Shown piece after piece: positions 6,387 through 42,891 of a DNA stretch of 42,891 nucleotides; the stretch's first letter is position 1, and every line of letters begins with the position of its first letter. The notes under the pieces were generated by a model, which was not told the DNA's origin, made no database searches, and worked only from the letters and a program-made list of their open reading frames with translations. A program made the translations under genes and the position numbers. Source of the DNA: Aliivibrio sifiae (lineage in GTDB: Bacteria > Pseudomonadota > Gammaproteobacteria > Enterobacterales > Vibrionaceae); assembly GCF_002954705.1 (NCBI RefSeq), contig NZ_MSCO01000001.1:1094994-1137884 (forward strand), in the 5' to 3' direction.

Positions 6387-6429
6387 ACGATAATAAATTT
6401 AAATATTAGATAGTTAATAGTTAATAGTT

Positions 6430-6462
6430 AAAAGGTTGCGATGATAAGTCGCAACCTTTTTT
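6430..6462 (+). terminator. Bidirectional terminator between the CNT and Bax-like genes
   Basis: A perfect 12-bp stem (AAAAGGTTGCGA at 6430-6441 with 6449-6460) has a 7-nt loop, A-run and T-run flanks, and sits between convergent genes. Just before it the heptamer TAGTTAA is repeated three times (6411-6431). Confidence 0.9.
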
Positions 6463-6466
6463 GTTT

Positions 6467-7375: not shown

Positions 7376-7408
7376 AAATGGAGTTCCATTTTTATATTAA
7401 TAGGATCG

Positions 7409-7437
7409 AAAACGGCGCTATATTCAGCACCGTTTTT
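7409..7437 (-). terminator. Hairpin downstream of ppiB
   Basis: AAAACGG (7409-7415) pairs with CCGTTTT (7430-7436) around a 14-nt loop, between ppiB and the Bax-like gene. The T run on the minus strand is short, so this is a weak call. Confidence 0.4.
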
Positions 7438-7467
7438 AGTGTTTATATGGAGTTAACAGTCGCTCTG

Positions 7468-7965
7468 TTATTCTTCTACAATAGTCACTTTCTCGATCAC
7501 AATACTCTCTTTTGGAACATCGTCAAACTCACCGATAGATTTAGTTTTAATTTTTGCAATTTTCTTAACTACATCCATACCAATAGTTACTTCACCAAAT
7601 ACCGCATAACCCCAACCAGCGTTAGTGGTGGCAGTGTGATCAAGAAAAGTATTGTTAGCGATGTTGATAAAGAACTCACTGGTTGCAGAGTGGGGTGCAT
7701 CAGTACGCGCCATAGCGATAGTACCGTTTAAGTTTTTCAAACCACGGTTCGCTTCATTCACAATCGGTGCGCGCATTTCTTTTTCTTGCATGTCCGCAGT
7801 AAAACCACCGCCTTGGATCATAAAGCCTTTGATAACACGGTGAAAAATAGTGCCTTCGTAAAAACCATCTTGGCAGTATTTTAAGAAGTTTTTTGAGCTT
7901 ACGGGCGCTTTTTCTTTGTTAAGCTCAATGTGAATGTCGCCAAAATTGGTGGTTAAAATGATCAT
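7468..7965 (-). CDS. ppiB: Peptidyl-prolyl cis-trans isomerase B (cyclophilin)
   Basis: This is a cytoplasmic cyclophilin of 165 residues, the normal length for bacterial PpiB, which speeds cis-trans isomerisation of Xaa-Pro bonds. The core motif [13 protein letters not shown] (about 41-53) contains the catalytic Arg, followed by [21 protein letters not shown] (about 84-104) and the WGYAVFGEV segment with the active-site Trp/Phe. No signal peptide is present, which separates it from periplasmic PpiA. It lies 49 bp downstream of the beta-lactamase gene on the same strand and could be read from that gene's transcript, although it more likely also has its own promoter. Confidence 0.96.
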
Positions 7966-8014
7966 ATAGTTAAGTCTATTTAAAAGTTAATTGAGAAAGA
8001 TTATACGTAGTTTC

Positions 8015-8866
8015 TTAGTTTATGTTGAACTCTTTAAATATCGCGTTACCCACTTCCACAATCACTTGATTACGTGAAGCCATGTCTAAATTCGTTTGAG
8101 TCAAGTAAATAGAGATAATGATAGGTGCGCGTTTGTTATTCCAAACAATGGCCGTGATCCCACGCGATCCAAATCCACCTGCGCCAGAGCGATCAGCAAT
8201 TGACCACTTAGCAGGTAAAATAGAACGTAATAGAGGATCAGATACTTTGTTATCGACCATCCAGGCCTTTAGCGTGCGTTTGTCTTTGGTATTAAGTGTT
8301 TGACCAAATAACAATTCGTTGAGTGTATTTGTCATCGCATTTGGGGTAGTAGTATCTCTAATGTCTCCCTTTTGAGCTTCATTTAATGCAGGTTCAATAC
8401 GGTCCAATCGAGTAATATTGTCTCCAATTAAACGTAAGAAAAGCGTGAGAGAGGTAGGGCTGCCAATCTTTGTTAGTACAATATTTGCAGCGGTATTGTC
8501 ACTCATTAGCATGGTGGCTTGGCATGCGCTTTCAGTGCTAATGGTTTCACCGATTAATTTTTCAGTGATAGGAGACCATGGAATAATGGATTCTTTGGTG
8601 ATCCTTGTTAGCGAATCTTTATCCAAGAGGTTATTGCTTGAGTTATAAAGCATTTGAGCACAAGCAAGAGTTTTAAAGGTACTCATCATCGGAAAGCGTT
8701 GGTCGCCTTTATAGCTCCATGATTGATTGTTTGATGTATCAAGAACTGAAACCCCAATCTGACCAGAACTAGCAAGCTCAATCGCTTCAATTGATTTGGT
8801 TAGTGATGTTGCTTGTGCAATATGAGAAAGCAAAGTTAAACAAAAAAGAAAAGTGATACGTTTCAT
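8015..8866 (-). CDS. Class A beta-lactamase, CARB/PSE-like
   Basis: This periplasmic serine beta-lactamase hydrolyses beta-lactams through an acyl-enzyme. All class A elements are present in the 283-residue protein: signal peptide 1-19, STFK with the nucleophile Ser62 and Lys65, SDN at 122-124, the omega-loop motif EPALN at 158-162 with general base Glu158, and DRSGAGG from 225. The last replaces the usual KTG by RSG, a mark of carbenicillinases of the CARB/PSE group, which are intrinsic to several Vibrio species. Nothing is truncated. No integron, transposon or ampR-like regulator is adjacent, which suggests an old chromosomal gene. It sits between an ACC-deaminase-like gene (40 bp) and ppiB (49 bp) on the same strand. 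The substrate range is inferred. Confidence 0.95.
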   Translation of the reverse strand: MKRITFLFCLTLLSHIAQATSLTKSIEAIELASSGQIGVSVLDTSNNQSWSYKGDQRFPMMSTFKTLACAQMLYNSSNNLLDKDSLTRITKESIIPWSPITEKLIGETISTESACQATMLMSDNTAANIVLTKIGSPTSLTLFLRLIGDNITRLDRIEPALNEAQKGDIRDTTTPNAMTNTLNELLFGQTLNTKDKRTLKAWMVDNKVSDPLLRSILPAKWSIADRSGAGGFGSRGITAIVWNNKRAPIIISIYLTQTNLDMASRNQVIVEVGNAIFKEFNIN

Positions 8867-8906
8867 TATAAGCCCTAAAGAAGGTTTTTTTGTATGCGAT
8901 TATGGA

Positions 8907-9824
8907 TTAATCAAATTTTCGTTGGTAGCGAGGGAGCATACTTTCATTACCTAACAAACCACCTTGGTGAATATAAACCAAAGTTTGAGTAGGGTTGTTT
9001 GCCATCCAATCATTCAAGCAGCGCCACATTAACGGGTCGTACAGCAGTTCAAATTCAACGTCAGTTTGTAAGAGAAGTGTTTTCCATATTTCGTAATCAT
9101 GGCGATATAACTTACCAAAATGGTGTTTTGTCGTTGGAGTTAAAATCTCAGGGTGATCCGTTTCTCCAAGTTCTAAAAATTGATCGGTAAGATAAGAGTT
9201 CCCGCCAACACATGCGCAGGTAATGACTTTTATATCGTGAGCTTTTAAATGTTTATGAAGAAATAGTGCGGTCGTTCCTGTACCAGAAGGCAAAGCCACG
9301 GTCAGAGAGGTGAGTTTTTGTTCTTCCTTCCATTCAATAAGCTCAATAGCCAGTTGCTTTACGCCACTTTCAGCTAAACCACAGCGACCCCCTTCAGGCA
9401 CAAATAACTCATGCTTTTTTGATTGCCTAATTTGTTGAATGTAATCCAAGCAGCCTAACGTGCTACCGTTATTTAGTTTGGCATTTTCAGTGTCATTTAA
9501 GGCAATAATATTAACCCCAAGATCTAACGCAGCGCGATAGTTTCCTTTTGGGTTTTCTTGTAAAAACGACGGGATATGGTCGACATAAAAATCTAATTGC
9601 CAACCTTTTAGTTGTGCCAGAGCTGCTAACGAGTAAAGAGAGTTTGCTTGTGGTGAGCCATAACCAATAATCGTGGTAATCGCAGGGAAATCACCGTCTA
9701 ACAATCCCATAAACTTACGAGCTTTGTTGCCAGAAAATTGAGGATGGAGCTGGTCATCGCGCTTTAAATAGAAATCGACACCATTAAATTGATGCTGAGT
9801 TACTGGGCTGTTTTGGATTTTCAT
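8907..9824 (-). CDS. PLP-dependent ACC deaminase / D-cysteine desulfhydrase family enzyme
   Basis: The 305-residue protein belongs to the tryptophan-synthase-beta-like PLP fold. Members either open 1-aminocyclopropane-1-carboxylate or release H2S from D-cysteine. The N-terminal motif LKRDDQLHPQFSGNKARKF (20-38) carries the PLP-binding Lys34, and a glycine-rich phosphate-binding loop reads LPSGTGTT near 208-215. YGSPQANS near 55-62 corresponds to the segment that contacts substrate carboxylate in this family. True ACC deaminases need further residues that cannot be assigned here, so D-cysteine desulfhydrase or a related amino-acid lyase is equally likely. It is cytoplasmic and is the first gene of a closely spaced minus-strand run with the beta-lactamase and ppiB. 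Confidence 0.85.
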   Translation of the reverse strand: MKIQNSPVTQHQFNGVDFYLKRDDQLHPQFSGNKARKFMGLLDGDFPAITTIIGYGSPQANSLYSLAALAQLKGWQLDFYVDHIPSFLQENPKGNYRAALDLGVNIIALNDTENAKLNNGSTLGCLDYIQQIRQSKKHELFVPEGGRCGLAESGVKQLAIELIEWKEEQKLTSLTVALPSGTGTTALFLHKHLKAHDIKVITCACVGGNSYLTDQFLELGETDHPEILTPTTKHHFGKLYRHDYEIWKTLLLQTDVEFELLYDPLMWRCLNDWMANNPTQTLVYIHQGGLLGNESMLPRYQRKFD

Positions 9825-9906
9825 GATGAGGTTTGAATGTTTGTGGGGTAAGAAGAGAATAATGACCTTACCGTGAGTGGAAAGGCCATCTTTGTTGTAA
9901 TGATAA

Positions 9907-10251
9907 TTACTTTTTCATCATCGATTTTAAAGCAGCAAACGGGTTGTGAGTTGCACCTTGGTGATCATCTTCACCTGCTTTAATTTCAGAGCCAAACTGA
10001 TCATGCTCTGTGTATTTTGAATGCTCATGATCATGACAGAAAAGACACAAAAGCTCCCAGTTGCTACCATCATTAGGGTTGTTTGTGTGGTCATGATCTT
10101 TATGGTGAACCGTTAATTCACGTAGGTTTGAGTACACAAATTCACGCGCACAATTACCACAGACCCAAGGATACAATTTTAATGCTTTTTCGCGGTAACC
10201 ACTTTCTTGACGGGCATAGGCGGCACTAGAGCCATAAAAATCAGATGACAT
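9907..10251 (-). CDS. yajD: HNH nuclease-fold protein YajD
   Basis: This small HNH-fold protein matches the YajD type (E. coli YajD is of similar size). From the start chosen here it has 114 residues. Zinc-knuckle pairs are visible at C31-x2-C34 and C69-x2-C72, with the HNH-type core VHHKDHDH at 48-55 and an Asn-rich loop before the second pair. An upstream in-frame ATG would add 34 residues rich in Lys and Arg, but only the start at 10251 has a clear ribosome binding site (AAGGA about 10 bases before) and the family N terminus. Nuclease activity of YajD is not well established. It stands alone, 82 bp upstream of the PLP enzyme gene. Confidence 0.88.
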   Translation of the reverse strand: MSSDFYGSSAAYARQESGYREKALKLYPWVCGNCAREFVYSNLRELTVHHKDHDHTNNPNDGSNWELLCLFCHDHEHSKYTEHDQFGSEIKAGEDDHQGATHNPFAALKSMMKK

Positions 10252-10420
10252 AATAATTAATTTCCTTTGTAACCTTTTAATTTTAAAGGCTTTTCTTTGA
10301 AGATAACAACTTGGCATATTAGTTTTGCGTATATATAAACATATAAATACCAATAACGGTATTGTTTTGAGTCACAATATAGTCATTTTTTAAAGTAAGG
10401 AATGTATTTAGATTGATGAA

Positions 10421-10870
10421 TTATTTCTGATTTATGTTGTTGTTTTTCTTTAAAAGCCATCCAATTGCCAACATAATTATACTTCCCTTAATGATGTTGA
10501 CAAAAGCAGTATATTGACTAAAAAATGTCAGTGGAACAAAGAGAAATATGATTAATAAAATAATGATGAATTCATAGCGGGCAAGATTTCTTATCTCCCA
10601 TCTTTTTAGATCCAGAGACTTTTCTTCAGCTGTTTTGATTGGTTCATTATGATTTTTAGTTGATAAGAAGAATAAAGGAAACATAATAACTAATATGAAG
10701 GGACGAAACTCAATGAACCCGAAATAATTACGATGTTGTAATAATGAATCTATACAAAAAGTAATAAGGGCGGCAGCAATTAAGTATCGCCAAAAGTTCT
10801 TCGACGTGAGGATATTTTTAACCTCTTTAAGCGATATATTTTTTAAATTATTCGTTTTCATTTTTCTCAT
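10421..10870 (-). CDS. Unknown inner-membrane protein behind a Fur box
   Basis: The protein is not recognised. It has 149 residues and about four hydrophobic segments (roughly 29-45, 55-70, 97-115 and 121-140), a Lys-rich N terminus and a Lys/Asn-rich tail, so it should sit in the inner membrane. Two starts three codons apart are possible (10870 or 10861); the second has GAGAAAA directly in front. A perfect 7-1-7 Fur box begins 8 bases upstream of the first start, which implies repression by Fur in iron-rich cells. No iron-uptake gene is adjacent. The codons are strongly AT-rich compared with neighbours. A role in iron or metal homeostasis is only suggested by the promoter. Confidence 0.7.
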   Translation of the reverse strand: MRKMKTNNLKNISLKEVKNILTSKNFWRYLIAAALITFCIDSLLQHRNYFGFIEFRPFILVIMFPLFFLSTKNHNEPIKTAEEKSLDLKRWEIRNLARYEFIIILLIIFLFVPLTFFSQYTAFVNIIKGSIIMLAIGWLLKKNNNINQK

Positions 10871-10877
10871 TAATGCG

Positions 10878-10896
10878 ATTGATAATTATTATCAAT
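10878..10896 (-). promoter_or_regulatory. Fur box, perfect 19-bp palindrome
   Basis: ATTGATAAT-T-ATTATCAAT is a perfect inverted repeat whose inner 15 bases match the Fur 7-1-7 consensus TGATAATnATTATCA exactly. It lies directly before the unknown membrane protein gene, where a bound repressor would cover the promoter or start region. The gene on the other side begins 190 bp away and is less likely to be controlled. Confidence 0.8.
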
Positions 10897-11086
10897 TAAT
10901 TGTACGGAAGAAATATAAAAAAAGATATTATTTTGTTAAACTTTTTTGAAATAAATAGAAAAGAAAGAAGGGTTGGCGGTTATTAGCTTGTAGGTATTTA
11001 ATAACCTAAAAGGTCAGTGACATTGTCATTTGGACTGCTTATAGTAAAAATTATATGGATGGTAATAATCGCTTTAAGGAGAATAA

Positions 11087-11553
11087 ATGTTATCAAAATT
11101 AGAACTGAGAATTCCACCGCCCTTAGTCATGTTGTTATTTATGGCGACAGTATTTGTTTTGACTACATTACCCCCTTTAATTTATTTTATTTGCCTTGGT
11201 TAAGCTATGTTCTCGTTATTATTTTGATTGTTTTAGGTGGGGTAATTGCTTTATGGGGGGTAAAAGAATTTCGAGAAGCTAAAACAACAGTGAATCCACT
11301 TAAACCTGAGAGTAGCTCATCTTTAGTTAATTCTGGTATTTATCAATACACTCGTAACCCTATGTACCTTGGATTATTACTGGCTTTGCTAAGTAGCGTT
11401 GCTTATACCCAACAGCCATTGGGTTTAGTGAGTGCATTAGGTTTTGTTCTTTATATGAATCGCTTTCAAATTGAGCCTGAAGAGAAAATGCTGACTACCT
11501 TATTTGGAGATGAATTTGTTGAATATACCAATCGAGTAAAGCGTTGGTTTTAA
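11087..11553 (+). pseudogene. Isoprenylcysteine carboxyl methyltransferase-family protein, frameshifted
   Basis: The ATG at 11087 has a strong AAGGAG 5 bases upstream and encodes MLSKLELRIPPPLVMLLF, the normal N terminus of bacterial ICMT/PEMT-family membrane methyltransferases, but it meets TAA at 11201. The rest of the protein lies in the -1 frame: LPWLSYVLVIILIV helices, FREAKTTVNPLKPE, SGIYQYTRNPMYLGLLL (the SAM-binding signature) and the RFQIEPEEKMLTTLFG motif. Joining the two frames near 11173-11179 gives about 155 residues, the family length. A single lost base in the CCCCCTTT run explains it, as mutation or sequence error. The shift point is also a slippery heptamer, so programmed frameshifting cannot be excluded. 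Reading only the longer frame would give a false start far upstream. Confidence 0.8.
11173..11179 (+). other. Possible -1 slippery heptamer in the methyltransferase gene
   Basis: C CCT TTA, read in the frame set by the ATG at 11087, fits the X XXY YYZ pattern for -1 slippage. Slipping here continues as Asn-Leu-Phe-Tyr-Leu-Pro-Trp into the rest of the methyltransferase. The motif is not among the efficient A-rich bacterial heptamers and no strong downstream stem is evident. Confidence 0.3.
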
Positions 11554-11854
11554 TTTATAAATAACTATGATTCCGTGACAGTTTGGGTGTTTTTGTCTCG
11601 GTATAACCAAGCAGATACCCATTCTATACTTACTCCTCCCATTCTTATTGCTGACATTGATCCCGATATCATAAAGAGCGTAAATTTCAGCCTAAAGCGT
11701 TAACTATTTTGGTTGAGCGTATTGTTCATACTATGGCTAGAACTTGACATTATCTTGACAGAGATTTGCCATTTTTAGTCTTAGAGGTCACGATTTAATC
11801 ACAATAAATCCATTAAAATATGTTCATAAATCAAACATCATGGCTGGGTGTATT

Positions 11855-12631
11855 ATGAAAAAGAAAATCAAAGTTATTATTAAGATCGCACTATTTATTG
11901 CATTTTTCGGCGTTGTTGGGCACGTTTTTGCTGCCGATTCATTAACTGCAAATGCAATAGTGAAAAAGTCAGATCAACAAATGCGTGGCGATTCGAGCTA
12001 TACCGAGCTGACCATGAACATCATTCGTCCTGACGGGACTCGTAGCATGAGCATGAAAAGTTGGACGAAAGAACAAAACCTTTCTTTAGTGTTAATTACA
12101 GGACCAGCAAAAGAACGAGGAAGTGCTTCATTAAAGCGTGATAAAGAGATGTGGGGGTGGATCCCGAATATTGAACGAGTGATCAAAATAGCGCCTTCAA
12201 TGCTCGGGCAATCATGGATGGGTTCGGATTTCACTAATGATGATTTGATTAACCAATCTTCCATTGTGGTGGATTATGATCATAAAATCATTAAAGAAGA
12301 CGTGATAGATGGAGATAAAACATGGGTGATCGACGCTATTGCTAAACCAGATGCTCCTGTTGTATGGAGTAAAGTACGCTTGTGGATTTCAAAAAAGACA
12401 TTTTTACAGCGCAAAGTTGAATCTTATGATGAGTTTGATGAGTTAGTTCATACTATGACGACCTATGATGTGCAGAACTTGAGTGGAAGAATGGTTGCAA
12501 CTCGAATGGAAATGGTTCCAGCCGATAAACCGGGTAATAAAACAGAAGTGATCACACATAAAGCCCATTTTAATTTCTTGATAAATGATGAGTTCTTTTC
12601 TCAGGCGCAGATGAAATCATTGCGTAATTAA
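11855..12631 (+). CDS. LolA-like periplasmic protein (outer membrane lipoprotein-sorting type)
   Basis: From the ATG at 11855 the 258-residue protein has a signal peptide (Lys-rich start, hydrophobic IALFIAFFGVVGHVFA). The mature part belongs to the LolA/LolB-like fold family annotated as outer membrane lipoprotein-sorting proteins. MRGDSSYTELTMNIIRPDGT, KERGSASLKRDKEMWGWIPN and SWMGSDFTNDDL are its typical conserved segments. Such proteins usually sit in operons with ABC or RND-type exporters and are thought to carry a lipid or lipoprotein across the periplasm. Here the partner is a wreck: 19 bases on lies the remnant of the ABC permease and ATPase genes. The protein itself shows no damage. 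An earlier in-frame ATG at 11840 would add five residues before the signal. The 286-base gap 11554-11839 upstream holds nothing I recognise. Confidence 0.82.
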   Translation: MKKKIKVIIKIALFIAFFGVVGHVFAADSLTANAIVKKSDQQMRGDSSYTELTMNIIRPDGTRSMSMKSWTKEQNLSLVLITGPAKERGSASLKRDKEMWGWIPNIERVIKIAPSMLGQSWMGSDFTNDDLINQSSIVVDYDHKIIKEDVIDGDKTWVIDAIAKPDAPVVWSKVRLWISKKTFLQRKVESYDEFDELVHTMTTYDVQNLSGRMVATRMEMVPADKPGNKTEVITHKAHFNFLINDEFFSQAQMKSLRN

Positions 12632-12650
12632 TAATGATTAGGCAGTAAAC

Positions 12651-12938
12651 ATGCTTACTCAATTAGCCTGGCGAAACCTATGATGACAAAAAAGACGTAC
12701 TTTATTAACGGCGTCTGCCTTAGCATTAGCCCCACAACCACGTTTTATTATGGCGGATGAACCTACCGTCAACCTTGATGTAAAAAGTACCTCAGAACTG
12801 CTTGATATAATGGAAGCATTGAACCAAGAAGAGGGGACGACTTTCATTTTTTCAACTCATGATTCATGGGTATTTAATCGAGCCAAGCGTATTATTGTGT
12901 TTGAAGATGGGCAGTTAAAAGAAGATAAAGCACAATAA
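12651..12938 (+). pseudogene. ABC exporter remnant: permease N terminus fused to ATPase C terminus
   Basis: The ATG at 12651 reads MLTQLAWRNL, the usual first residues of a MacB/FtsX-type permease of LolA-linked exporters. Two adjacent TGA codons follow (12681-12686), where such permeases have Trp-Arg. The same frame goes on as QKRRTLLTASALALA, permease-like up to about 12730. It then passes without a break into APQPRFIMADEPTVNLD, the Walker B region of an ABC ATPase, and on to the H-loop STHDSW and the normal ATPase end (about 70 residues). The middle of the permease and the Walker A and signature parts of the ATPase are gone. A deletion between similar GCCTTAGC-like stretches would explain the in-frame junction. 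No functional transporter can come from it. Confidence 0.8.
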
Positions 12939-14233: not shown

Positions 14234-15217
14234 CTAATAAACAGTGCACCATTCATTTTTCATGTCGATTAGGTGCCAATTATCACGTTGATTCGCTTCA
14301 TCCATTGCTTTATCTAAATGACCAAAATTTGATTTACGATCGTATTTCCACTCACGATCTTCGTCAGTGTGATGGACGATCATTGCCATTGAGTTCGGCT
14401 GGCTTGTTGCCCATTGCATCATAGCCTGATCTCCATCAGAGTTACCAATCGCTAATACTGGCTTCTTACCGATGATATGCTGAATATTCTCCACTTTACC
14501 TGCTTTGTCATCGATAGTTAGGATCTCACCTTGTTTCGTTACTGTTGGATTACCATTATTGTAATCGTATTTGTATTTCAATGCGCTGCCGATGATTTGC
14601 TCTTCAGGAATACCATAGACTTCTGGTGCCCATGCACGCATAAAGTCAACGCCACCGCCAGAAACGATATAAGTTTTAAATCCATTATCTTGTAGATACG
14701 TGATCATCTCACGCATTGGCTTATACGTTAGCTCGGTATATGCTGTGTCGAAATGTGGGTCTTTTGCCACTTTTAACCATTGAGTTACTGTCTGTTCGTA
14801 TTCTTCAATCGTCATACCACTGTGAGTTGCCATTACGATGTCGAGTAGCGCTTTTTCTCCTCCTGCAAACACACCTTTAATGTCGTTATTTAAAACAGAT
14901 TTAAATGGTTCTTGTGTTTTCCATTCTGGATGTTCTTTTGCCATGCTTTTTACTTGGTCTAACGCAAAGGCGACTTGAAAGTAGTAAGGCTGTTCTGACC
15001 ATAATGTTCCGTCATTATCGAATACAGCAATGCGATCTTGCTTTGGAATAAAGGTTTTTTGTGAGGTGTTGGTTGATTGTTTAACATAGTTCACAATTGC
15101 TGTTTTGCTGGTACCATCTTTCCATGAAGGCAGTAAATTTTGATCGCAATCCAAAGCCATCGTTGAAAAGGATAGGCTTGATAAGACTACTAGGGCACAG
15201 ATTTTTTTCTTATTCAT
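14234..15217 (-). CDS. Periplasmic HAD-superfamily phosphatase
   Basis: The 327-residue protein has a signal peptide (KKKICALVVLSSLSFSTMA, about 2-21) and a haloacid-dehalogenase fold. Motif I is FDNDGTLW at 66-73, with nucleophile Asp67 and acid/base Asp69. Motif II is TYIVSGGG near 189-196. The acidic motif IGNSDGDQAMM, near 263-273, holds the Mg-binding aspartates. It resembles the phosphoserine-phosphatase-like HAD proteins exported by many gammaproteobacteria, so it should remove phosphate from small compounds in the periplasm. The substrate is not known. It stands alone, with no close partner on its strand. A plus-strand ORF with a very good Shine-Dalgarno overlaps its 3' end in antisense. 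Confidence 0.88.
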   Translation of the reverse strand: MNKKKICALVVLSSLSFSTMALDCDQNLLPSWKDGTSKTAIVNYVKQSTNTSQKTFIPKQDRIAVFDNDGTLWSEQPYYFQVAFALDQVKSMAKEHPEWKTQEPFKSVLNNDIKGVFAGGEKALLDIVMATHSGMTIEEYEQTVTQWLKVAKDPHFDTAYTELTYKPMREMITYLQDNGFKTYIVSGGGVDFMRAWAPEVYGIPEEQIIGSALKYKYDYNNGNPTVTKQGEILTIDDKAGKVENIQHIIGKKPVLAIGNSDGDQAMMQWATSQPNSMAMIVHHTDEDREWKYDRKSNFGHLDKAMDEANQRDNWHLIDMKNEWCTVY

Positions 15218-15416
15218 ATAATTATTTACCTAAAGTTTGTATATATTTAAGGCTAAGCGCAAAGCTATATTGGTCTATTTGCAATATAACTATAGACTGG
15301 CTATAAAGCCGTTATGAAGATTAGCAATAAATATTATAAAAAAAGGTTATAAATGCCATTACGATCACACTGATCTTTGTTCCTCTCATTCATGCTCCCT
15401 GCTTTGCACGGACTTC

Positions 15417-16268
15417 TTAAATTCTATCCATGGTTGATGATATTTCATCAATCAATAGTTTTGCTGTATCGCTTTTTATTTGCAGTAACGTCATAAACAA
15501 TAAATCGGTAATAACATTCTGAGCGGTTCTTGACGATATTGATGAACTGCGGAATTGCCTTTCATCTGCAATGGTATCAATACAGAAATTAGCGATTTTA
15601 CGTAAAGGGCTTCTCTTTGTACTGGTTAACGCAATCACTATTGCTCCTTTATCTAGGGCTGTTTGTGCAGCCATTAAGCTCTCCTTTCGACTGCCAGAAT
15701 ACGAAATGACAATTTGAACGTCATTTTTGGTTAAGGCATTGGCCGTTGCAATTTGGACATGGCTATCTTGCTCAGCTAAGGCTGTCATGCCTATTTTTAA
15801 CAGTTTAAAGGCGAGGTCTTTAGCGGTTAATGCTGAGCCTCCAATACCAACTATTTGAATTCGTTGTGCTTGATTAAGCAGGGTGGTGATGGTTTCAAAC
15901 TCTGAGAAATCAATAGCATTGGTTGTTGCAATAAGCGCGTGGTTTTTTTCTTGTACTAGCTTTTGTGCGATTGTTAGAGAAGAGTCGTCACTATTTATTT
16001 TGTTATGAATTGGACGCTCAGGTTCTAGTATTGCGTGTTTTCGCCCTATATCTTCAATAATCGCCAGTTTAAAAGCAGTAAACCCTTTGAATCCAAGTCG
16101 TTGTGCCAGTTTTACAATACTTGATTGAGATACACCGACTTTTGCGGCAAGCGCTTGGCTTGAATATGAGCTAATTTCGGCAGGTTCATCAAGAATAAAA
16201 TCCAAAATCTTTATTCCATTAGCAGATAAGCTGCTTCTTTGGTTTTGTATCTTTTCTAAAATACTCAT
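15417..16268 (-). CDS. murR: RpiR-family regulator of MurNAc catabolism
   Basis: The 283-residue regulator has an N-terminal RpiR helix-turn-helix (1-77, with YSSQALAAKVGVSQSSIVKLAQRLGF) and a C-terminal SIS sugar-phosphate-binding domain (about 125-260, with IQIVGIGGSALTAKDLAFKL and VQIVISYSGSRKE). It is divergent from murQ-murP, exactly the arrangement of E. coli murR, which represses those genes until MurNAc 6-phosphate binds. The identification as MurR rests on this context, since RpiR proteins for other sugars look similar. It probably also represses itself from the shared 260-bp intergenic region, which has repeated TTATTCCA/AGAATAA half sites. Confidence 0.88.
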   Translation of the reverse strand: MSILEKIQNQRSSLSANGIKILDFILDEPAEISSYSSQALAAKVGVSQSSIVKLAQRLGFKGFTAFKLAIIEDIGRKHAILEPERPIHNKINSDDSSLTIAQKLVQEKNHALIATTNAIDFSEFETITTLLNQAQRIQIVGIGGSALTAKDLAFKLLKIGMTALAEQDSHVQIATANALTKNDVQIVISYSGSRKESLMAAQTALDKGAIVIALTSTKRSPLRKIANFCIDTIADERQFRSSSISSRTAQNVITDLLFMTLLQIKSDTAKLLIDEISSTMDRI

Positions 16269-16405
16269 AGTACCTATCTTTTTTGAATTAATTATTCCAA
16301 ATTAATCGTTATTATTCTTTATGAATTTATTTTATTTAAGTTATTGATATTAAGTCTATAGTTTTATTTTTGGTGTCAGGCTCTTCTTATTGTTAATTTT
16401 ATTTA

Positions 16406-16432
16406 TTCCACCTATTCTGGAAGTTTAGAATA
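16406..16432 (+). promoter_or_regulatory. Candidate MurR operator (overlapping inverted repeats)
   Basis: TTCCA-N7-TGGAA (16406-16422) overlaps TATTCT-N8-AGAATA (16413-16432) just upstream of the CRP site. A further ATTATTCCAA lies at 16291-16300 next to the murR start. These are the only clear symmetric repeats between the divergent genes, so they are the best operator candidates. The assignment to MurR is inference. Confidence 0.45.
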
Positions 16433-16440
16433 ACTTTTGT

Positions 16441-16456
16441 TGTGATTTTGGTCACT
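16441..16456 (+). promoter_or_regulatory. CRP binding site upstream of murQ
   Basis: TGTGATTTTGGTCACT fits TGTGA-N6-TCACA in nine of ten positions and lies 72 bases before the murQ ATG. In E. coli the murQP operon is CRP-dependent, which agrees. Confidence 0.72.
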
Positions 16457-16528
16457 AAATGGAATTTTTTATTCTTTATGATGACAACCATTGAAATTAA
16501 GAATTTATCTTTTTAAGAGAACCTAATA

Positions 16529-17431
16529 ATGAAAATTGATTTAACTACATTAGTAACAGAAAGCCGTAATCAAGCCAGTGAGCAAATTGATGTGTTATCA
16601 ACCGTTGATATGTTGACTGTGATTAATAAAGAAGATCAAAAAGTGGCGTTAGCGGTTGAAGTTATTTTGCCTCAAATCGCGGAAGTGGTTGATGCAATTG
16701 CAGCGGCCTTTCAATCTGGTGGGCGTTTGATTTATACCGGTGCAGGCACATCTGGTCGTTTGGGTATTTTAGATGCGAGTGAATGTCCTCCAACTTATGG
16801 CTCTAATCCTGATTTGGTTGTTGGCTTAATTGCTGGCGGTCACAAAGCCATTTTAAAGGCAGTAGAAAATGCAGAAGATAACCGTGAACTCGGTGCTTCA
16901 GATTTACAAGATCTAGGCCTTAATGAGAAAGACGTATTAGTAGGTATCGCAGCGAGTGGTCGTACACCTTACGTTCTTGGTGCAATGGAATACGCGAAAT
17001 CAGTTGGGGCGACAGTTGCAGCATTAAGCTGTAATCCAAATAGCCCAATGACAGAGCTTGCCGATATTAACATGACCCCAGTGGTTGGCCCTGAAGTGGT
17101 GACGGGTTCTTCTCGTATGAAGGCAGGAACCGCACAAAAGTTAGTGTTAAATATGCTAACAACAGGTGCGATGATCCGTACAGGTAAAGTATTTGGTAAC
17201 TTAATGGTTGATGTAGAAGCAACCAACGCAAAATTAGTACAGAGACAAAAAAATATTGTAATTGAAGCGACGGGCTGTGCAGAAGAAGAAGCCTCTACTG
17301 CGTTATCTCAATGTAATAATCACTGTAAAACCGCAATTCTTATGGTGTTGTCAGGACTAGACGCAAAAAGCGCGACAGAAAAACTAGCGCAACATAATGG
17401 ATTTATTCGCGACGCTCTCGCTAACAGCTAA
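16529..17431 (+). CDS. murQ: N-acetylmuramic acid 6-phosphate etherase
   Basis: MurQ removes the D-lactyl ether of MurNAc 6-phosphate, giving GlcNAc 6-phosphate and D-lactate in the cytoplasm. The 300-residue protein has the usual length and the SIS-fold signatures: [23 protein letters not shown] at about 69-91, with Glu85 matching the catalytic Glu83 of E. coli, then the GLIAGG loop, AASGRTPYV, and [17 protein letters not shown] with the second catalytic region, followed by a helical CUE-like C terminus. It is the first gene after the divergent promoter region, 53 bp ahead of murP. The product GlcNAc 6-phosphate would feed into the NagA/NagB route, which is not in this window. Confidence 0.96.
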
Positions 17432-17484
17432 TCAGACTGGGCAGATCTTCGTGGTCTGCCGCAGCATCTAGAAAGGAAAATGGC

Positions 17485-18939
17485 ATGGCCAAGATAACAA
17501 CATCAATGATACAAGAGATCTTAAATGCAATCGGTGGCAAAAATAATGTCATCAAATGCGGAAACTGTATGACACGTCTACGCTTAACGCTACATGATGA
17601 CAGTCTTGCCAATCGAGATACTATCAAACGTATTTCAGGCGTAATGGGTTTAGTTGAAAGTGACGATCAATTTCAAATCGTTTTAGGTCCAGGTAAAGCA
17701 CAAACTGCCGCTGAAATGATGAACGAGATGATGGAAGGGGATGAAGAAACTTCTGCGCCTATTACTGCTGAAAATAAAAACTTAAAAGATGTAGCTTCTG
17801 AACATAAACAGAAGATGAAAAAGAAACAAACCAGTGCGACTCAGCGATTTTTAAGTAAGTTCGCGACCATTTTTACCCCGTTAATTCCGGGTTTCATTGC
17901 TGCTGGTCTGTTGTTAGGTTTTGCGACACTGTTAGATCAAGTCTATGTAATGGGTAGTGAGTCACCAAATGCTAATTTGGTTGATTTGATCCTCTACATG
18001 AAAGTGTTTAGTAAAGGCTTATTTAGCTTTCTTAGTATCTTGATTGGTTACAACGCACAGCAAGCTTTTGGTGGTTCTGGTGTGAACGGGGCGATTTTAG
18101 CATCATTGTTTGTATTGGGTTATAACCCAGAAGCAACGACAGGCATTTATTCTGGTATGACGGATTTCTTTGGCCATGGTATCGACCCTAGAGGAAATAT
18201 CATTGGAGTATTAATCGCTGCCATTATTGGTGCAGGTGTTGAGAACAAAGTACGTCAATACATGCCTGATAACCTAGATATGATCTTAACGTCGGTTGTT
18301 ACGCTGTTGATTATGGGTGCGGTTACCTTTGTTGTGATCATGCCACTAGGCGGTGTGTTATTCCAAGGTATGTCTTGGTTGTTCATTAACTTGAATGGTA
18401 ATCCATTTGGTAGTGCAATTTTAGCGGGTCTGTTTTTAATCTCGGTAATGTTTGGTATTCACCAAGGTTTTGTTCCTGTGTATTTTGCTTTAATGGATGC
18501 ACAAGGGTTTAACTCATTGTTCCCAATCCTAGCAATGGCAGGTGCTGGTCAAGTTGGAGCATCATTGGCTCTTTATGCTAAAGCGGGTAAAGATGCGTTA
18601 TTGCGTACTCAAGTTAAAGGCGCGATTATTCCCGGCTTCTTAGGTATAGGTGAACCATTAATTTATGGTGTGACATTACCAAGAGTTAAGCCATTTATTA
18701 CGGCATGTATTGGTGGCTCAGCTGGGGGCTTCTTTATTGGATTAGTGTCGTACATGGGATTACCTGTTGGTTTGAATACGGTATTTGGTCCATCAGGTAT
18801 TGTGGCTTTACCTCTAATGACATCAAGTGCAGGTATATTCGCCGGTATGATGGTGTTTGCTGCTGGTCTTGTGATTGCTTACGCTGTTGGTTTTATTGCA
18901 ACGTGGTTCTTTGGTACAAAAAATGTAGATTTAAGCTAA
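17485..18939 (+). CDS. murP: PTS MurNAc transporter, EIIBC
   Basis: This PTS enzyme imports and phosphorylates MurNAc at the inner membrane. The 484-residue protein has an EIIB domain (1-90), with the phosphorylated Cys28 in [13 protein letters not shown] charged linker (about 90-122) follows, then an EIIC domain with about ten membrane spans, including [24 protein letters not shown] and the conserved [22 protein letters not shown] near 377-397. No EIIA domain is present, as in E. coli MurP, so it must borrow EIIA-Glc (Crr). Identification as MurP rather than a GlcNAc or sucrose permease rests on murQ being next to it. The ATG is preceded by AGAAAGGAAAATGGC. A strong terminator follows. Confidence 0.92.
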
Positions 18940-38550: not shown

Positions 38551-40155
38551 ATGGGTTTTAAATCAGAAAAGTACAGTATTGAATCGACAGATTATCAAGT
38601 CGGTCAAGATAACATTAGTAAATGGGGCATGGATGTCCATAATACCGTTTTTATAGCCTCAGTCGGCTTGTCTCTTCTCTTCATTATTACACTTCTCGCA
38701 CTACCTCCTACAGATGCAAAAGCCGCCATTGATTCCCTTAAAGGTTCAGTGTTAGCAAATTTTGACTTCCTCTTTATGTGGGGAGCCAACATCTTATTAA
38801 TCGTTGCCATTATTATTGCTTTTTCACCGTTAGGTAAAATTCGCTTAGGTGGTGATGATGCGAAGCCAGATTATTCAAAAGCCTCTTGGATCTCGATGCT
38901 ATTTGCCGCAGGTATGGGTATTGGGCTTATCTTCTGGGGTGTTGCAGAGCCAACCGCGTTCTTTACCAACTGGTTTGGAACTCCGCTTAATGTAGAACCT
39001 TTTACAGAAGCAGGGCGTGAACTTGCACTGGGTGCAACGGTCTTCCACTGGGGGTTACACGCATGGGCTATCTATGGCATGACAGCACTTTGCCTTGCTT
39101 ATTTTGTTTATAACAAAGGGCTGCCATTATCAATGCGCTCGGTGTTTTATCCATTGTTAGGTGATCGAGTCTGGGGTAAAACGGGTGATGTGATTGATAT
39201 CTTAACCGTGTTAGTTACCTTGTTTGGTCTTGCAACGTCTCTTGGTTTAGGCGGCTCGCAAGCGGCTAGTGGTATTAGCCATGTTTTCGGAATGGAAAAT
39301 AACATCTATCTTCAACAGGCTATTATCGTATTGATCATGGGTCTTGCGATTATTTCTGTTCTACGCGGTATGGATGGGGGCGTTAAATTTCTTAGTAACC
39401 TGAATATGGTTATCGCCTTTGTCTTCCTTGGTTTGATTGCTGTGTTGAATTTCACAACAGTATTGGATTCATTAGTTACGGCATTAACTGGTTATGTGAA
39501 AAACATTATTCCGTTAAGCCAAAGCTCTGGCCGAGAGGACACGACTTGGCTGCATGGTTGGACTGTGTTCTATTGGGCGTGGTGGGTAGCGTATGCACCT
39601 TTCTTTGGTATGTTCGTAGCTCGTATATCTAAAGGTCGTACTGTTCGCGAATTTCTTCTTTGCGTAATGCTTATACCGACAATGGTAACTACAGCTTGGA
39701 TGTCAATCTTCGGTGGTGTGGCTATTCAACAAGTTATCGATAAAGTGGGTCTATTAGGCGCTCAACAAGGTATTAGTGATGTATCTCTAAGCTTGTTCCA
39801 TATGCTAGATGCTTATCCGTTTGGGGATATTCTATCCTTTATTGCCGTAGCACTGATCATCGTTTTCTTTGTGACCACGTTGGACTCAGGCTCTATCGTT
39901 ATTGATGGCATGACTGCGGGTGGTAAATTAGAAGTACCAGTTAAACAGAAGGTAGTTTGGGCGGTTATCTCTGGTGCTATCGCCATGATTATGTTGTGGA
40001 TTGGTGGCACTGAATCTATTCAAGCGTTGCAATCCATCACCATTATTGCTGCAATGCCGTTCACCATTATTCTCTTGCTAGGTTGTGTGAGTTTACTTAA
40101 AGGACTATTGACGGAAGTTGATAAGCCAAAGGTAGCCACTAAGCGAGTTAACTAG
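38551..40155 (+). CDS. BCCT family transporter (sodium-motif type)
   Basis: The 534-residue inner-membrane carrier has 12 membrane spans and the full BCCT signature WTVFYWAWWVAYAPFFGMFVARISKGRTVREF. In contrast to the other BCCT protein in the window it has the glycine motif AAGMGIGLIFWGVAEPTAFF (near 114-133), typical of sodium-coupled glycine betaine, choline or DMSP carriers such as OpuD, BetL and BetP. The C-terminal tail is short (about 15 residues). The ATG is the first possible start after an in-frame TGA at 38536; it lacks a strong ribosome binding site. An osmoprotectant role is likely but unproven. A terminator follows. Confidence 0.93.
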   Translation: MGFKSEKYSIESTDYQVGQDNISKWGMDVHNTVFIASVGLSLLFIITLLALPPTDAKAAIDSLKGSVLANFDFLFMWGANILLIVAIIIAFSPLGKIRLGGDDAKPDYSKASWISMLFAAGMGIGLIFWGVAEPTAFFTNWFGTPLNVEPFTEAGRELALGATVFHWGLHAWAIYGMTALCLAYFVYNKGLPLSMRSVFYPLLGDRVWGKTGDVIDILTVLVTLFGLATSLGLGGSQAASGISHVFGMENNIYLQQAIIVLIMGLAIISVLRGMDGGVKFLSNLNMVIAFVFLGLIAVLNFTTVLDSLVTALTGYVKNIIPLSQSSGREDTTWLHGWTVFYWAWWVAYAPFFGMFVARISKGRTVREFLLCVMLIPTMVTTAWMSIFGGVAIQQVIDKVGLLGAQQGISDVSLSLFHMLDAYPFGDILSFIAVALIIVFFVTTLDSGSIVIDGMTAGGKLEVPVKQKVVWAVISGAIAMIMLWIGGTESIQALQSITIIAAMPFTIILLLGCVSLLKGLLTEVDKPKVATKRVN

Positions 40156-40207
40156 TTAGGTTAACTTGTAGCTAGATTAAGAGCCAAAGTAAAAGTTAGA
40201 TCTACAA

Positions 40208-40244
40208 TAAAACTCTCTGGTACTTTGTGTTGGGGAGTTTTTTT
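40208..40244 (+). terminator. Terminator after the second BCCT gene
   Basis: AAAACTCTC (40208-40216) pairs with GGGGAGTTTT around a long loop, with T7 after it. It closes the core region just before the accessory module. Confidence 0.75.
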
Positions 40245-40266
40245 ATAGAATTCACAAACACTAAAC
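40244..40266 (+). repeat. Direct repeat, left copy, flanking the Sir2-like module
   Basis: The 23 bases starting TATAGAATTCACAAACAC are repeated at 41793-41815 with two A/G differences (21 of 23 identical). The copies lie 1549 bases apart and bracket the small membrane ORF, the Sir2-like gene and the 42-codon gene. Confidence 0.7.
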
Positions 40267-40277
40267 ATGCAATAACA

Positions 40278-40424
40278 ATGCAGCTATGGCTCGTATCAGT
40301 GAGCTTACTAGCTGTGATTCTGATGCGTTACTTGAAATTGAGTTTGATTGGCGAGGGGATTAACCTCTTGTTATTACTTTTAATATCATATACGTTACCC
40401 ATAAGCATTATATCGTTATACTAA
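40278..40424 (+). CDS. Possible small membrane protein upstream of the Sir2-like gene
   Basis: A 48-residue ORF (start MQLWLVSVSLL) has two hydrophobic stretches split by a short loop with Arg, Lys and Glu. It ends 22 bases before the Sir2-like ATG, so the two could be cotranscribed. No good ribosome binding site precedes the ATG; an in-frame GTG at 40227 lies inside the terminator and is less likely. The call is uncertain: it may be a chance hydrophobic frame in AT-rich DNA. Confidence 0.35.
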   Translation: MQLWLVSVSLLAVILMRYLKLSLIGEGINLLLLLLISYTLPISIISLY

Positions 40425-40446
40425 CTTCAAATATTTAAGAGTAAAA

Positions 40447-41481
40447 ATGAAACTAGTTGTACTATCTGGAGCCGGTCTTTCTAGTCCATCGGGTATGCCT
40501 ATATACGATGAAATCAAGTTAGACAGTGATTATCTACTTCTTCATTCAGCACAAGCAGAAGATATTGTGATAGGCGCTATCTCTTCTTTGAAATCTAGGT
40601 TTTTGCATATAAAGCCCAATTCTGTACATCGCGAGTTAGTTAAACTGCACCATTATTGTCAGGCACACGGTGTAGAGATGACCCACTATACTTTGAACGT
40701 CGACGATCTTATTGAACAAGTAGGAGGAACAGTTCACCACCTCCATGGCAACATTAAGGATCCTAAGAGTATTTTCGATCATAAAGATGTGGCATCTTTG
40801 GACCTAAATTCTATTACTTGGGCTTCTGGTGATTTAATGGTTGTACTTGGTGTTAGTAATAATGGTTATCCGCTTTCTTATCTAGAGAGTGAAGTACTTG
40901 CATGTGGTGGAAGCTTTCTAAACTTTAATATTGTAAACAACGACGACTTATTATCACAGACAACTGTTGGAGATCTTTCAGATACATTTTCTGTTCTTGA
41001 ACTGAGTCAAAATTTACATAGTGAGTTTAACATAATTGACTTAGGGGATTATGAAATTGATATTAAAACATTTTCTATCAATGAGCGAACATATGAGGTT
41101 TACTTTACTCCTACACAGTTTGTAGTAACCTCTGAGGAAGAACAGAAAGAATTAGAAGAACTTGTCGGACAAAAACTCGATCATACTGCTTATGAGATTA
41201 AGTTTGATCTACAGTCTAATAGAGAAAGTGAGTCACCCTTCGAACAGCCTGACAATAATTTTACTTTGAGAGAGCTTAACTTACTTGGCATGATCATAGC
41301 GTCTACTATCAAAGCTCATTCATCTTTAAGACAAGTCACATTATACACTGCATCGGCAGCTGAAGATAATCTTGTGCTATTCTACAATCGACTTGCCAAC
41401 GTTTATGCAAGTAGATTACAATATGACCATTGGTGTGGTTTTGGGTTAGAAGGAGTCAACTATGCGTTCAAAAAACAGTAA
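40447..41481 (+). CDS. Minimal sirtuin-like (SIR2-fold) protein with unknown C-terminal domain
   Basis: The first ~185 residues of this 344-residue protein follow the sirtuin order: the NAD-binding GAGLSSPSGMP (8-18), TLNVDDLIEQVGG (82-94) with Asn84 and Asp86, LHGNI (99-103) with the catalytic His100, then MVVLGVSNNGYPLSYL (131-146), where sirtuins have the GTS..VYP segment, and FLNFN (157-161). The Cys4 zinc module is missing. Residues 190-344 form a separate domain with no family I recognise (YEVYFTPTQFVV, LYTASAAEDNLVLFYNRLA). SIR2-fold proteins in defence loci deplete NAD; that role here is inference from the neighbourhood. The 42-codon gene overlaps its end, so the two are probably translated together. 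Confidence 0.8.
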   Translation: MKLVVLSGAGLSSPSGMPIYDEIKLDSDYLLLHSAQAEDIVIGAISSLKSRFLHIKPNSVHRELVKLHHYCQAHGVEMTHYTLNVDDLIEQVGGTVHHLHGNIKDPKSIFDHKDVASLDLNSITWASGDLMVVLGVSNNGYPLSYLESEVLACGGSFLNFNIVNNDDLLSQTTVGDLSDTFSVLELSQNLHSEFNIIDLGDYEIDIKTFSINERTYEVYFTPTQFVVTSEEEQKELEELVGQKLDHTAYEIKFDLQSNRESESPFEQPDNNFTLRELNLLGMIIASTIKAHSSLRQVTLYTASAAEDNLVLFYNRLANVYASRLQYDHWCGFGLEGVNYAFKKQ

Positions 41482-41590
41482 GACTACAGCGCAACGTAAA
41501 ACAGAAGGTTTACGTAAGTTATCTCAAGCATATTCTGATGCAATTAAAGCTGGTACGGTAAGAAAAGTTTTGACTGTTGCAAAACCATAA
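41462..41590 (+). CDS. 42-residue basic protein overlapping the Sir2-like gene
   Basis: The ATG at 41462 lies inside the last 20 bases of the Sir2-like gene and has AAGGAG 7 bases before it, the best ribosome binding site in this region. The protein starts MRSKNSKTTAQRKTEGLRKL and is rich in Lys, Arg, Ser and Thr, with a likely helix in the middle and no membrane segment. A terminator follows 22 bases after the stop. Overlap, strong Shine-Dalgarno and shared terminator argue for a real gene made in step with the Sir2-like protein. A nucleic-acid-binding or partner/antidote role is possible, but no family is recognised. Confidence 0.7.
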   Translation: MRSKNSKTTAQRKTEGLRKLSQAYSDAIKAGTVRKVLTVAKP

Positions 41591-41612
41591 TAAAACAATT
41601 GATTTAAAAAAT

Positions 41613-41636
41613 AGCCGCGTTCATCGCGGCTTTTTT
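41613..41636 (+). terminator. Terminator of the Sir2-like module
   Basis: AGCCGCG (41613-41619) pairs perfectly with CGCGGCT (41625-41631) around a 5-nt loop, followed by T6. Confidence 0.9.
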
Positions 41637-42040
41637 GTGCGTGTGGTTTTAGAAACTATTGTCCAAAATGGCTGCCCTGTATCTCATGCAACCATTTAAA
41701 CTTCAGCCTTATCGAATTAAAGTAAGGATTATGGATAAAAAAGTACTTGAAGTGTTTTTCCTACGATAAAGTATATTCAATGCTTATTCCTATATAGAGT
41801 TCACAAGCACTAAACCAGATATTGAGTTTGATGAATTATAAATTTTAACCACTTTAGCTGAAGCATACGAAAGTGAATTTTCTGTGTAGTCGTTGATTAT
41901 ATTCTTGAGTTTTGATGATTATTTATCGATTTATCAATAGTTTATTTCCATTTTAAACTGGACTTATATTGATCTTAACTAGAGCTGTATTCAATATGTA
42001 TGATACATTAAGCCTAATAATGATTATGGCAAGTTAAATA
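41637..42040. other. Gene-poor spacer with scraps
   Basis: About 400 bases without a supported gene. It holds the right copy of the direct repeat, and a 12-codon ORF (ATG near 41731, with AAGGATT directly before) that is too short to call. It must also contain the promoter of the MBL-fold gene. Confidence 0.5.
41793..41815 (+). repeat. Direct repeat, right copy
   Basis: The copy starts TATAGAGTTCACAAGCAC and matches 40244-40266 at 21 of 23 positions. After it comes ATTGAGTTTGATGAATTAT, which shares ATTGAGTTTGAT with bases around 40338 inside the module. Confidence 0.7.
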
Positions 42041-42891
42041 TTGAAAACGTCAAACTCCACAAAAAAACTTAAATGTAGTTTTTACTTCCTACCAGCTGGT
42101 AATGGTGATTGTGTCCTTATTCAGTATCAAGATGATGATTCTGCATACCGTAATATTTTAATTGATGGTGGTAATCGTAACCAGCTTGAATTTCAGCAAC
42201 AGAAGAGGAAAATTTTAGAAATTCTCGATGAGGGGCGGAAAGGTCGTTTAGATCTTGTAATCGTCACTCATAGTGATGATGATCATATCAAAGGTATCCT
42301 TAAACTAGTCATGGATAAACAGTTGGAGGGTTATGTGGACAAGTTCTGGTTCAATTCAGAGAAGACTATTAGCGAGTTGCTCTTTTCTCCTTTTCAACAT
42401 ACGCAACCTTACCTTGTTGATGAGCAAGCTAGTGGTGCTGAGCGCTCGTCAAGAAATCAGGACCACGACCTGTATCATGAACTCGATAAGAATAATAAAT
42501 GGGATCATGAGGTTATTTCTTTTCCTAAAGAAGAAGTTATAGGTAACTTAAAGCTAACCGTTCTTTCTCCTACAATTGAAAAACTACAAAAACTAGATGA
42601 GCACTGGCCTCAAATGCCTTTGAATGCCAAGAATGTGAGTAGATCAGCAAAATGCGTATCAGACCATAATCAAAGTCTGAATCAACTGATGAAAGGTTTG
42701 GACTCTTTTGAAGAGGACGTATCTCCAGTAAATGGGGCAAGTATTGCGCTTATGTTAGAGTGGTGCTCCAGACGCTATTTATTGTTATCGGACTCACATC
42801 CAAGTGTTATAGTCGATAGCCTTGCTGATTTTATCCCAGAGAATAAAGAAGCATTAGATTTTGATTTGGTGAAAGTGTCTCATCATGGAAG
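42041..42891 (+). CDS. ComEC-like MBL-fold hydrolase (5' part), AVAST type 1-like
   Basis: The open frame starts after a stop at 42035 and has only TTG (42041) as a plausible start; it runs off the window after 283 codons. The protein begins with FYFLPAGNGDCVLIQY (14-29) and LIDGGN (40-45). The zinc motif THSDDDHIKG lies at 76-85 with His77, Asp79, Asp81 and His82, and further on come ASIALMLEW, RYLLLSDSHPSV and VSHHG at the window end, all marks of the MBL domain seen in ComEC and in defence proteins. Type 1 AVAST systems open with such an MBL protein, followed by a protease and a STAND ATPase; the next genes lie outside the window. No ribosome binding site stands out before the TTG. Confidence 0.75.
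   Translation, partial: MKTSNSTKKLKCSFYFLPAGNGDCVLIQYQDDDSAYRNILIDGGNRNQLEFQQQKRKILEILDEGRKGRLDLVIVTHSDDDHIKGILKLVMDKQLEGYVDKFWFNSEKTISELLFSPFQHTQPYLVDEQASGAERSSRNQDHDLYHELDKNNKWDHEVISFPKEEVIGNLKLTVLSPTIEKLQKLDEHWPQMPLNAKNVSRSAKCVSDHNQSLNQLMKGLDSFEEDVSPVNGASIALMLEWCSRRYLLLSDSHPSVIVDSLADFIPENKEALDFDLVKVSHHG

Follow-up and report, generated by a model that had tools for sequence, protein, structure and literature searches.

A rare two-gene unit of Aliivibrio sifiae pairing a GNAT-fold domain, optionally fused to a Sir2-like half, with a tiny basic protein

A stretch of 42,891 nucleotides (nt) from Aliivibrio sifiae (contig NZ_MSCO01000001.1, positions 1,094,994 to 1,137,884 of the forward strand), hereafter called the window, carries two overlapping genes belonging to a rare family that is unlabelled in the libraries searched. 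The first encodes a protein of 344 amino acids (aa) joining a Sir2-like half to a GNAT-fold half, referred to here as the core domain; the second encodes a basic protein of 42 aa. Judging from the sequences compared, the core domain and the small protein constitute the conserved unit and the Sir2 half is an optional add-on, since all eight contigs devoid of this half keep the other two. The same pair also turns up in a small number of other, distant bacteria and phages, and its locations comprise chromosomal hotspots, a plasmid and P2-like prophage surroundings. We are largely confident that this pair is conserved and resides mainly at defence loci. The reading that we favour goes further and, from the analysis as a whole, receives a probability of about 0.4: the pair would be a mobile two-gene defence-type module acting as a toxin-antitoxin or abortive-infection unit.

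The gene pair

The large gene extends over 40447..41481 on the forward strand, as do all features of the locus described below. Its Sir2-like half (residues 1-195) corresponds to 40447..41031 and its GNAT-fold half (about residues 196-344) to 41032..41478. The partner gene (41462..41590) overlaps the end of the large gene by 20 nt and starts with an ATG located within the YAF codons of the latter; a GAAGGAG stretch ends 6 nt upstream of this ATG. In the homologues examined, the small gene likewise begins inside the conserved AF codons that close the core gene. With an isoelectric point (pI) of 4.8 and a charge of -24, the large protein is acidic, and the small one strongly basic (pI 11.2, charge +8.5), a contrast also present in the homologues for which these values were computed. 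A strong Rho-independent terminator-like site lies 3' of the pair (41613..41631), and three such sites were found in the whole stretch for 0.6 expected. The overlapping basic gene and the shared terminator had been announced by the original prediction and were found. The membrane peptide that it had placed in front of the pair did not hold: the open reading frame (ORF) concerned (40227-40424) is not a credible gene, because it runs, in a different frame, over a decayed stretch which in relatives belongs to a higA-like gene and because it has no family match better than E 0.14 in Pfam, PADLOC, NCBIfam or PHROGs. Promoter predictions (10 for 6.9 expected) were set aside, and an Rfam scan of 40100-42891 at gathering thresholds matched no RNA element.

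Relatives and distribution

A tblastn search of 72,556 plasmid records returned one match, the Alteromonas mediterranea 615 plasmid (L002), whose large protein is 34% identical over its full length and is followed by a 42-aa gene overlapping by 23 nt and encoding a 31% identical product. Of 394 genomes of the order searched with a profile, two proved to be carriers, the genome of the window and G561 (L015); the latter encodes a large protein 44% (over the full length) and a small protein 56% identical to those of the window, with an overlap of 20 nt. A search for the small protein across 335 genomes of the order gave strong scores in no genome but the two that possess the large one; marginal rows in G586 and G595 (E 0.001 and 0.006) fall in long frames of 227 and 450 aa and were disbelieved. 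One of 14 genomes sampled in the genus carries the unit. The class (369 genomes) and phylum (398) samples each gave the genome of the window as the sole believed match, plus one spurious row: G319 over 34 positions with stops, and G1091 in a frame that looks TilS-like by eye. The large gene is a rare accessory gene.

The core domain also exists on its own. A scan of viral contigs uncovered it as a free-standing protein of 167 aa, and a second scan of genome contigs added two more free-standing cores, in Vreelandella massiliensis and in a Halomonas metagenome-assembled genome. The Sir2-less set comprises eight contigs (L003, L005-L009, L012 and L013, with L003 and L004 being one contig), and all eight carry an overlapping basic gene of 56-57 aa at the same place. 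We call the viral contigs Halomonas-type on account of the match between L005 and Halomonas phage vB_HboP_4908 (25% covered, 83% identity). In L006, L007 and L008 the pair is identical DNA, and a prophage-type copy in L009 (7953-8519) combines a frame-broken core gene with an intact small gene. The partner thus measures 42 aa in the window and on the Alteromonas plasmid, and 56 or 57 aa in Halomonas-type contigs. Other queries were negative within their scope: the viral contigs gave nothing with the window protein, the three-sequence alignment of fused proteins, the 57-aa partner or the L015 and L002 proteins; the first scan of genome contigs and the search of E. coli genomes were empty; and the 167-aa core protein of L003 found nothing in phages or plasmids.

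Both genes evolve under purifying selection. Among five Halomonas-type copies, the ratio of nonsynonymous to synonymous substitution rates (dN/dS) of the core domain ranges from 0.08 to 0.15 in all ten comparisons, and that of the small gene, outside the overlap, from 0.05 to 0.20 in 8/10 comparisons with finite dS. The 42-aa ORF is accepted as a gene because its partner relationship is conserved in ten further contigs, and the co-occurrence expected by the original prediction was thereby obtained.

The GNAT-fold core domain

The GNAT fold follows the order beta2-beta3-beta4-alpha3-beta5-alpha4-beta6-beta7. Two AlphaFold models and a structure comparison, together with an alignment, gave a GNAT-type fold for the C-terminal half, the region for which the original prediction had advised structure modelling, and AtaT figures among its structural matches. 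A tyrosine (Y313) is invariant in all eight core-domain members and lines up by pattern with the residue that we take to be the general acid of GNATs. At the sequence level the domain is elusive. No Pfam GNAT model matched any of the eight members at E <= 10, and profile searches of solved structures remained at chance level (best E 0.49 for the core domain and 0.29 for the small protein). A viral structure library yielded eight matches at E <= 0.001, the best (2.5e-5) being with a protein of an Agrobacterium phage that bears the name of a zeta-toxin domain; none of the eight is named as an acetyltransferase. The small proteins are equally discreet: a Pfam scan of eight of them at E <= 1 detected no ribbon-helix-helix (RHH), DUF1778 or DUF4065 domain, such short sequences being hard to detect, and five chance-level Pfam families (best E 0.023) and PHROG rows (best E 0.049) were too weak to be believed.

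The Sir2-like half

The N-terminal half is closest to PHROG 2162 (E 2.5e-12). It also matches an NCBIfam deacylase subfamily (E 4.5e-9; 35.6 bits, far under the cut-off of 243) and Pfam SIR2 (E 0.0017, below cut-off). Its AlphaFold model is poor, with a predicted local distance difference test score (pLDDT) mostly <50, so the fold assignment comes from sequence profiles only. A Cys4 zinc module is impossible in the window protein, whose only cysteines are C71 and C153, and the SIR2-type half without zinc module described by the original prediction is retained.

The complete set of nicotinamide adenine dinucleotide (NAD) and histidine motifs that it had also claimed is only partly there. The window copy has GAG (residues 8-10), N84/D86, H98 and H100-G101, and a phmmer alignment places His100 on the HG histidine of solved sirtuins; it departs from the usual sirtuin motif GIPDFR with GMPIYD and reads TLN for TQN. 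Moreover, GAG and NxD are kept in all three fused proteins and HG in the window copy only (HLHG), the other two fused proteins reading HVYG and HLYG; the residue is Tyr in both the Alteromonas and the G561 protein. The pair of catalytic Asn and His of NADase-type defence sirtuins, as in DSR2 (N133/H171), is hence present in the window copy only and is no family feature. The position of the tyrosine presumably corresponds to H363 of SIRT1. In that enzyme the same His-to-Tyr change (H363Y) is inactivating (PMC2605257). As the catalytic His is replaced by Tyr in two of three fused copies, NAD consumption appears unlikely as a function common to the family, and the Sir2-like domain would more likely serve as a gate or anchor that binds NAD or a derivative rather than consuming NAD; binding of NAD or ADP-ribose is possible. 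Sirtuin domains with a natural His-to-Tyr change would represent an uncommon instance of this fold being employed in defence for sensing and not for catalysis.

Genomic setting

On its left, the unit is preceded by a BCCT transporter gene (38551..40155), which forms the border of the hotspot and lies outside the module. The unit splits a decayed antitoxin-like gene, named higA-like by eye, whose left part (40260..40348) stops at 40348 and whose right part (41814..41873) restarts at 41814; the last 19 nt of the former (40330-40348) are repeated at the beginning of the latter (41814-41832) with 16/19 identities. The corresponding ORF is intact in L057 and L059, where it accompanies a higB-like gene, and alone in L061. 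Both remnant halves map to one continuous stretch with an exact 19-nt overlap in four of eight relatives (L057, L059, L061 and L063); they map close to each other without overlap in L058, only the right part maps in L060, and neither does in L062 and L064.

A BCCT orthologue at >=95% exists in nine of the 14 genus genomes, the remaining five having only ~60% matches. In all nine, the stretch 3' of this gene was compared, and its content varies up to a conserved gene judged kinase-like by eye. A PADLOC scan covered hotspot proteins from seven of the eight relatives, the eighth (L061) carrying the L057 protein at 97% identity. Five gave matches: PDC-S06, the N-terminus of an Argonaute-associated restriction endonuclease, an LmuB/PtuA-type ATPase, the N-terminus of a SAVED-associated nuclease and a ThsA-like SIR2 protein. 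The proteins of L059 and L062 gave none. In the window itself, the pair is followed by the 5' part of a metallo-beta-lactamase (MBL)-fold, LmuA-like gene (42041..42891, E 1.7e-62) continuing beyond the window end, and then, outside the window, by a HamB (Hachiman) helicase frame (E 4.6e-209). The defence-like neighbourhood suspected at the outset is thus substantiated. Inspection by eye of the long ORFs, in the window and in the 18 kb beyond it, revealed no phage structural gene.

Elsewhere, a CRISPR array (repeats of 28 nt, spacers of 32 nt) that we take to be type I-F lies ~150 nt from the G561 pair. The minimal, Sir2-less form occupies P2-like tail-gene settings, and one fused form is borne by a plasmid. 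After the L003 pair come a cytosine methylase and a restriction enzyme, and the sister phage vB_HboP_4908 has an Eco29kI-type restriction-modification system in the slot behind gene D. Single neighbours of the pair in L002 and L005 had no PADLOC match. P2-like phages of E. coli are described as carriers of defence hotspots (PMC9122126).

A few further observations were made in these surroundings. In L064, the ThsA-like N-terminus (E 2.9e-31) belongs to a 933-aa hotspot protein (9992-12793, -) continuing with a long part without PADLOC assignment. Two adjacent hotspot proteins of L062 (594-1940 and 2008-4593, +; 448 and 861 aa) possibly constitute another unlabelled system, the 448-aa one showing by eye an AGAGKT motif of NTPase type, and a 387-aa protein of L059 (1526-2689, +) adjoins the higBA-like genes. 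In L016, a CRISPR array with repeats of 28 nt (15649-16577) lies close to the pair in a region flanked by two similar antirepressor-like ORFs (14253-18845); by eye no ORF of >=100 aa stands out as cas in its 20 kb, with no dedicated search made. In L006, an ATPase and further genes adjoining the pair (5777-10060, -) resemble by eye another multi-gene defence operon. Elsewhere in the window, an HNH endonuclease-like protein (9907-10353, -) weakly matches ZorE2 in PADLOC (E 1.2e-6), and a 283-aa protein (8015-8866, -) shows by eye serine beta-lactamase-type motifs (STFK, SDN).

Proposed function and alternatives

An acidic GNAT-fold effector, a basic downstream partner, coupled translation, a terminator of their own, a rare and apparently mobile distribution and defence slots together account for the toxin-antitoxin-like fit. 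The GNAT-fold domain would be the effector and is predicted to modify a cellular target in an acyl-CoA-dependent manner, the candidates with the best precedent being charged tRNA or the ribosome. The basic protein of 42-57 aa would bind the acidic effector and keep it inactive, its translation being putatively coupled through the start codon embedded in the last codons of the effector gene. In the fused copies, the Sir2-like NAD-site domain may gate or anchor the effector by binding NAD or a derivative. Toxicity, acyltransferase activity, an antitoxin role, NAD gating and an anti-phage effect are what we infer for the unit. The acetyl-CoA motif weighs against this mechanism: the loop consensus of GNATs is [QR]xxGx[GA], and the core domain offers a degenerate NxLGx[G/I/V], with N first in 8/8 members and the last G in 5/8.

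The alternative that survives best, although we consider it rather unlikely, is a non-toxic complex in which the small protein acts as substrate, adaptor or nucleic-acid binder and which modifies or regulates DNA, RNA polymerase or ribosomes to the benefit of phage or plasmid. The P2-like tail-gene settings of the minimal form and the plasmid location of a fused form agree with it, the basicity of the partner would suffice for binding nucleic acids, and phage GNATs of the Rac or Mom sort have been described (PMC7824862). The window copy speaks against it, being located in a chromosomal defence hotspot where, by eye, the long ORFs include no phage structural gene.

The original prediction saw in the Sir2 half a NADase effector and in the C-terminal domain its sensor, the small protein being partner or antidote. 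The window copy alone would encourage this explanation, as it keeps N84, D86 and His100, and changing the matching N or H reduces the activity of the zinc-less NADase DSR2 (PMC10981675); a ThsA-like SIR2 protein also occurs in the same hotspot of L064. However, the tyrosine in two of three fused copies, the GNAT-type fold of the supposed sensor and the persistence of core and partner in all eight Halomonas-type contigs lacking the Sir2 half make it doubtful, and the roles of effector and sensor were probably assigned the wrong way round. A more elaborate scheme, which we regard as at least as doubtful, would have a GNAT toxin held by the tiny basic antitoxin and gated by a catalytically dead sirtuin sensing NAD or ADP-ribose, so that NAD depletion induced by phage, or NAD loss caused by a neighbouring NADase system, releases the toxin.

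A little less probable again is a non-catalytic GNAT platform, comparable to ornithine decarboxylase antizyme, titrating a host or phage protein with the small protein as release factor; the invariance of Y313, which lines up by pattern with the general acid of GNATs, argues against it. Finally, chance, with the 42-codon ORF no gene and the large gene an ordinary divergent sirtuin, could invoke the ~7% of simulated downstreams giving an ORF of >=42 codons that starts in the last 40 nt of the upstream gene, which makes the overlap in the window alone weak evidence, but it is refuted by the conservation of the partner in ten other contigs and by purifying selection among the Halomonas-type copies.

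The fused protein combines domains whose classical reactions oppose each other, namely acetyl transfer and NAD-dependent deacetylation. With the minimal phage form, the function of the core becomes directly accessible to experiment on a DNA of about 0.7 kb.

Comparison with known systems

The window proteins, large and small, together with seven core-domain members, have no match in PADLOC-DB 2.0.0. More generally, the core domain and its partner found no convincing match in Pfam, PHROGs and PADLOC, nor, for the window copies, in NCBIfam, in agreement with the suspicion first voiced that no characterised system corresponds to this pair. Searches of the literature for a Sir2-GNAT fusion under several phrasings found no paper, and nothing similar stood in the titles and opening lines of abstracts listed by wider searches.

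Among defence sirtuins (ThsA, DSR1/2, Sir2-HerA and short pAgo-Sir2), the resemblance lies in the zinc-less Sir2 half, the retained N84/D86 and the location in a defence hotspot. They differ from the present family, where the catalytic His is Tyr in two of three copies, the C-terminal half is GNAT-like, the Sir2 half is dispensable and PADLOC finds nothing. Phage Sir2 proteins, those of PHROG 2162 and of jumbo phages, are closest to the N-terminal half, but none of the 23 matching phage records covers 80% of the query, so there is no full-length match. Sofic-AS1 likewise associates a single-effector defence protein with a tiny antitoxin gene downstream (47 aa; PMC12249575); its effector is a Fic AMPylase and not a GNAT fold, and no sequence relation is claimed.

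A close parallel is offered by the GNAT type II toxin-antitoxin systems TacAT, AtaRT and KacAT, with DUF1778 or DUF4065 antitoxins, in which a small partner gene likewise overlaps that of a GNAT-fold protein; the overlap and cotranscription described for KacAT recall the overlap seen here, whereas the classical order places an RHH antitoxin upstream (PMC9431474). GNAT toxins are known that act by acetylation of charged tRNAs and can switch from one antitoxin family to another (PMC9177977). In the present family the partner is located downstream, measures 42-57 aa and has no RHH, DUF1778 or DUF4065 match, the acetyl-CoA motif is degenerate, the GNAT half is undetected by Pfam and a Sir2 fusion occurs in three places. 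Sequence-level membership tests did not place the unit among these systems and it is therefore not classed as one of them, yet our analysis suggests as the best fit that it functions like a GNAT toxin-antitoxin system.
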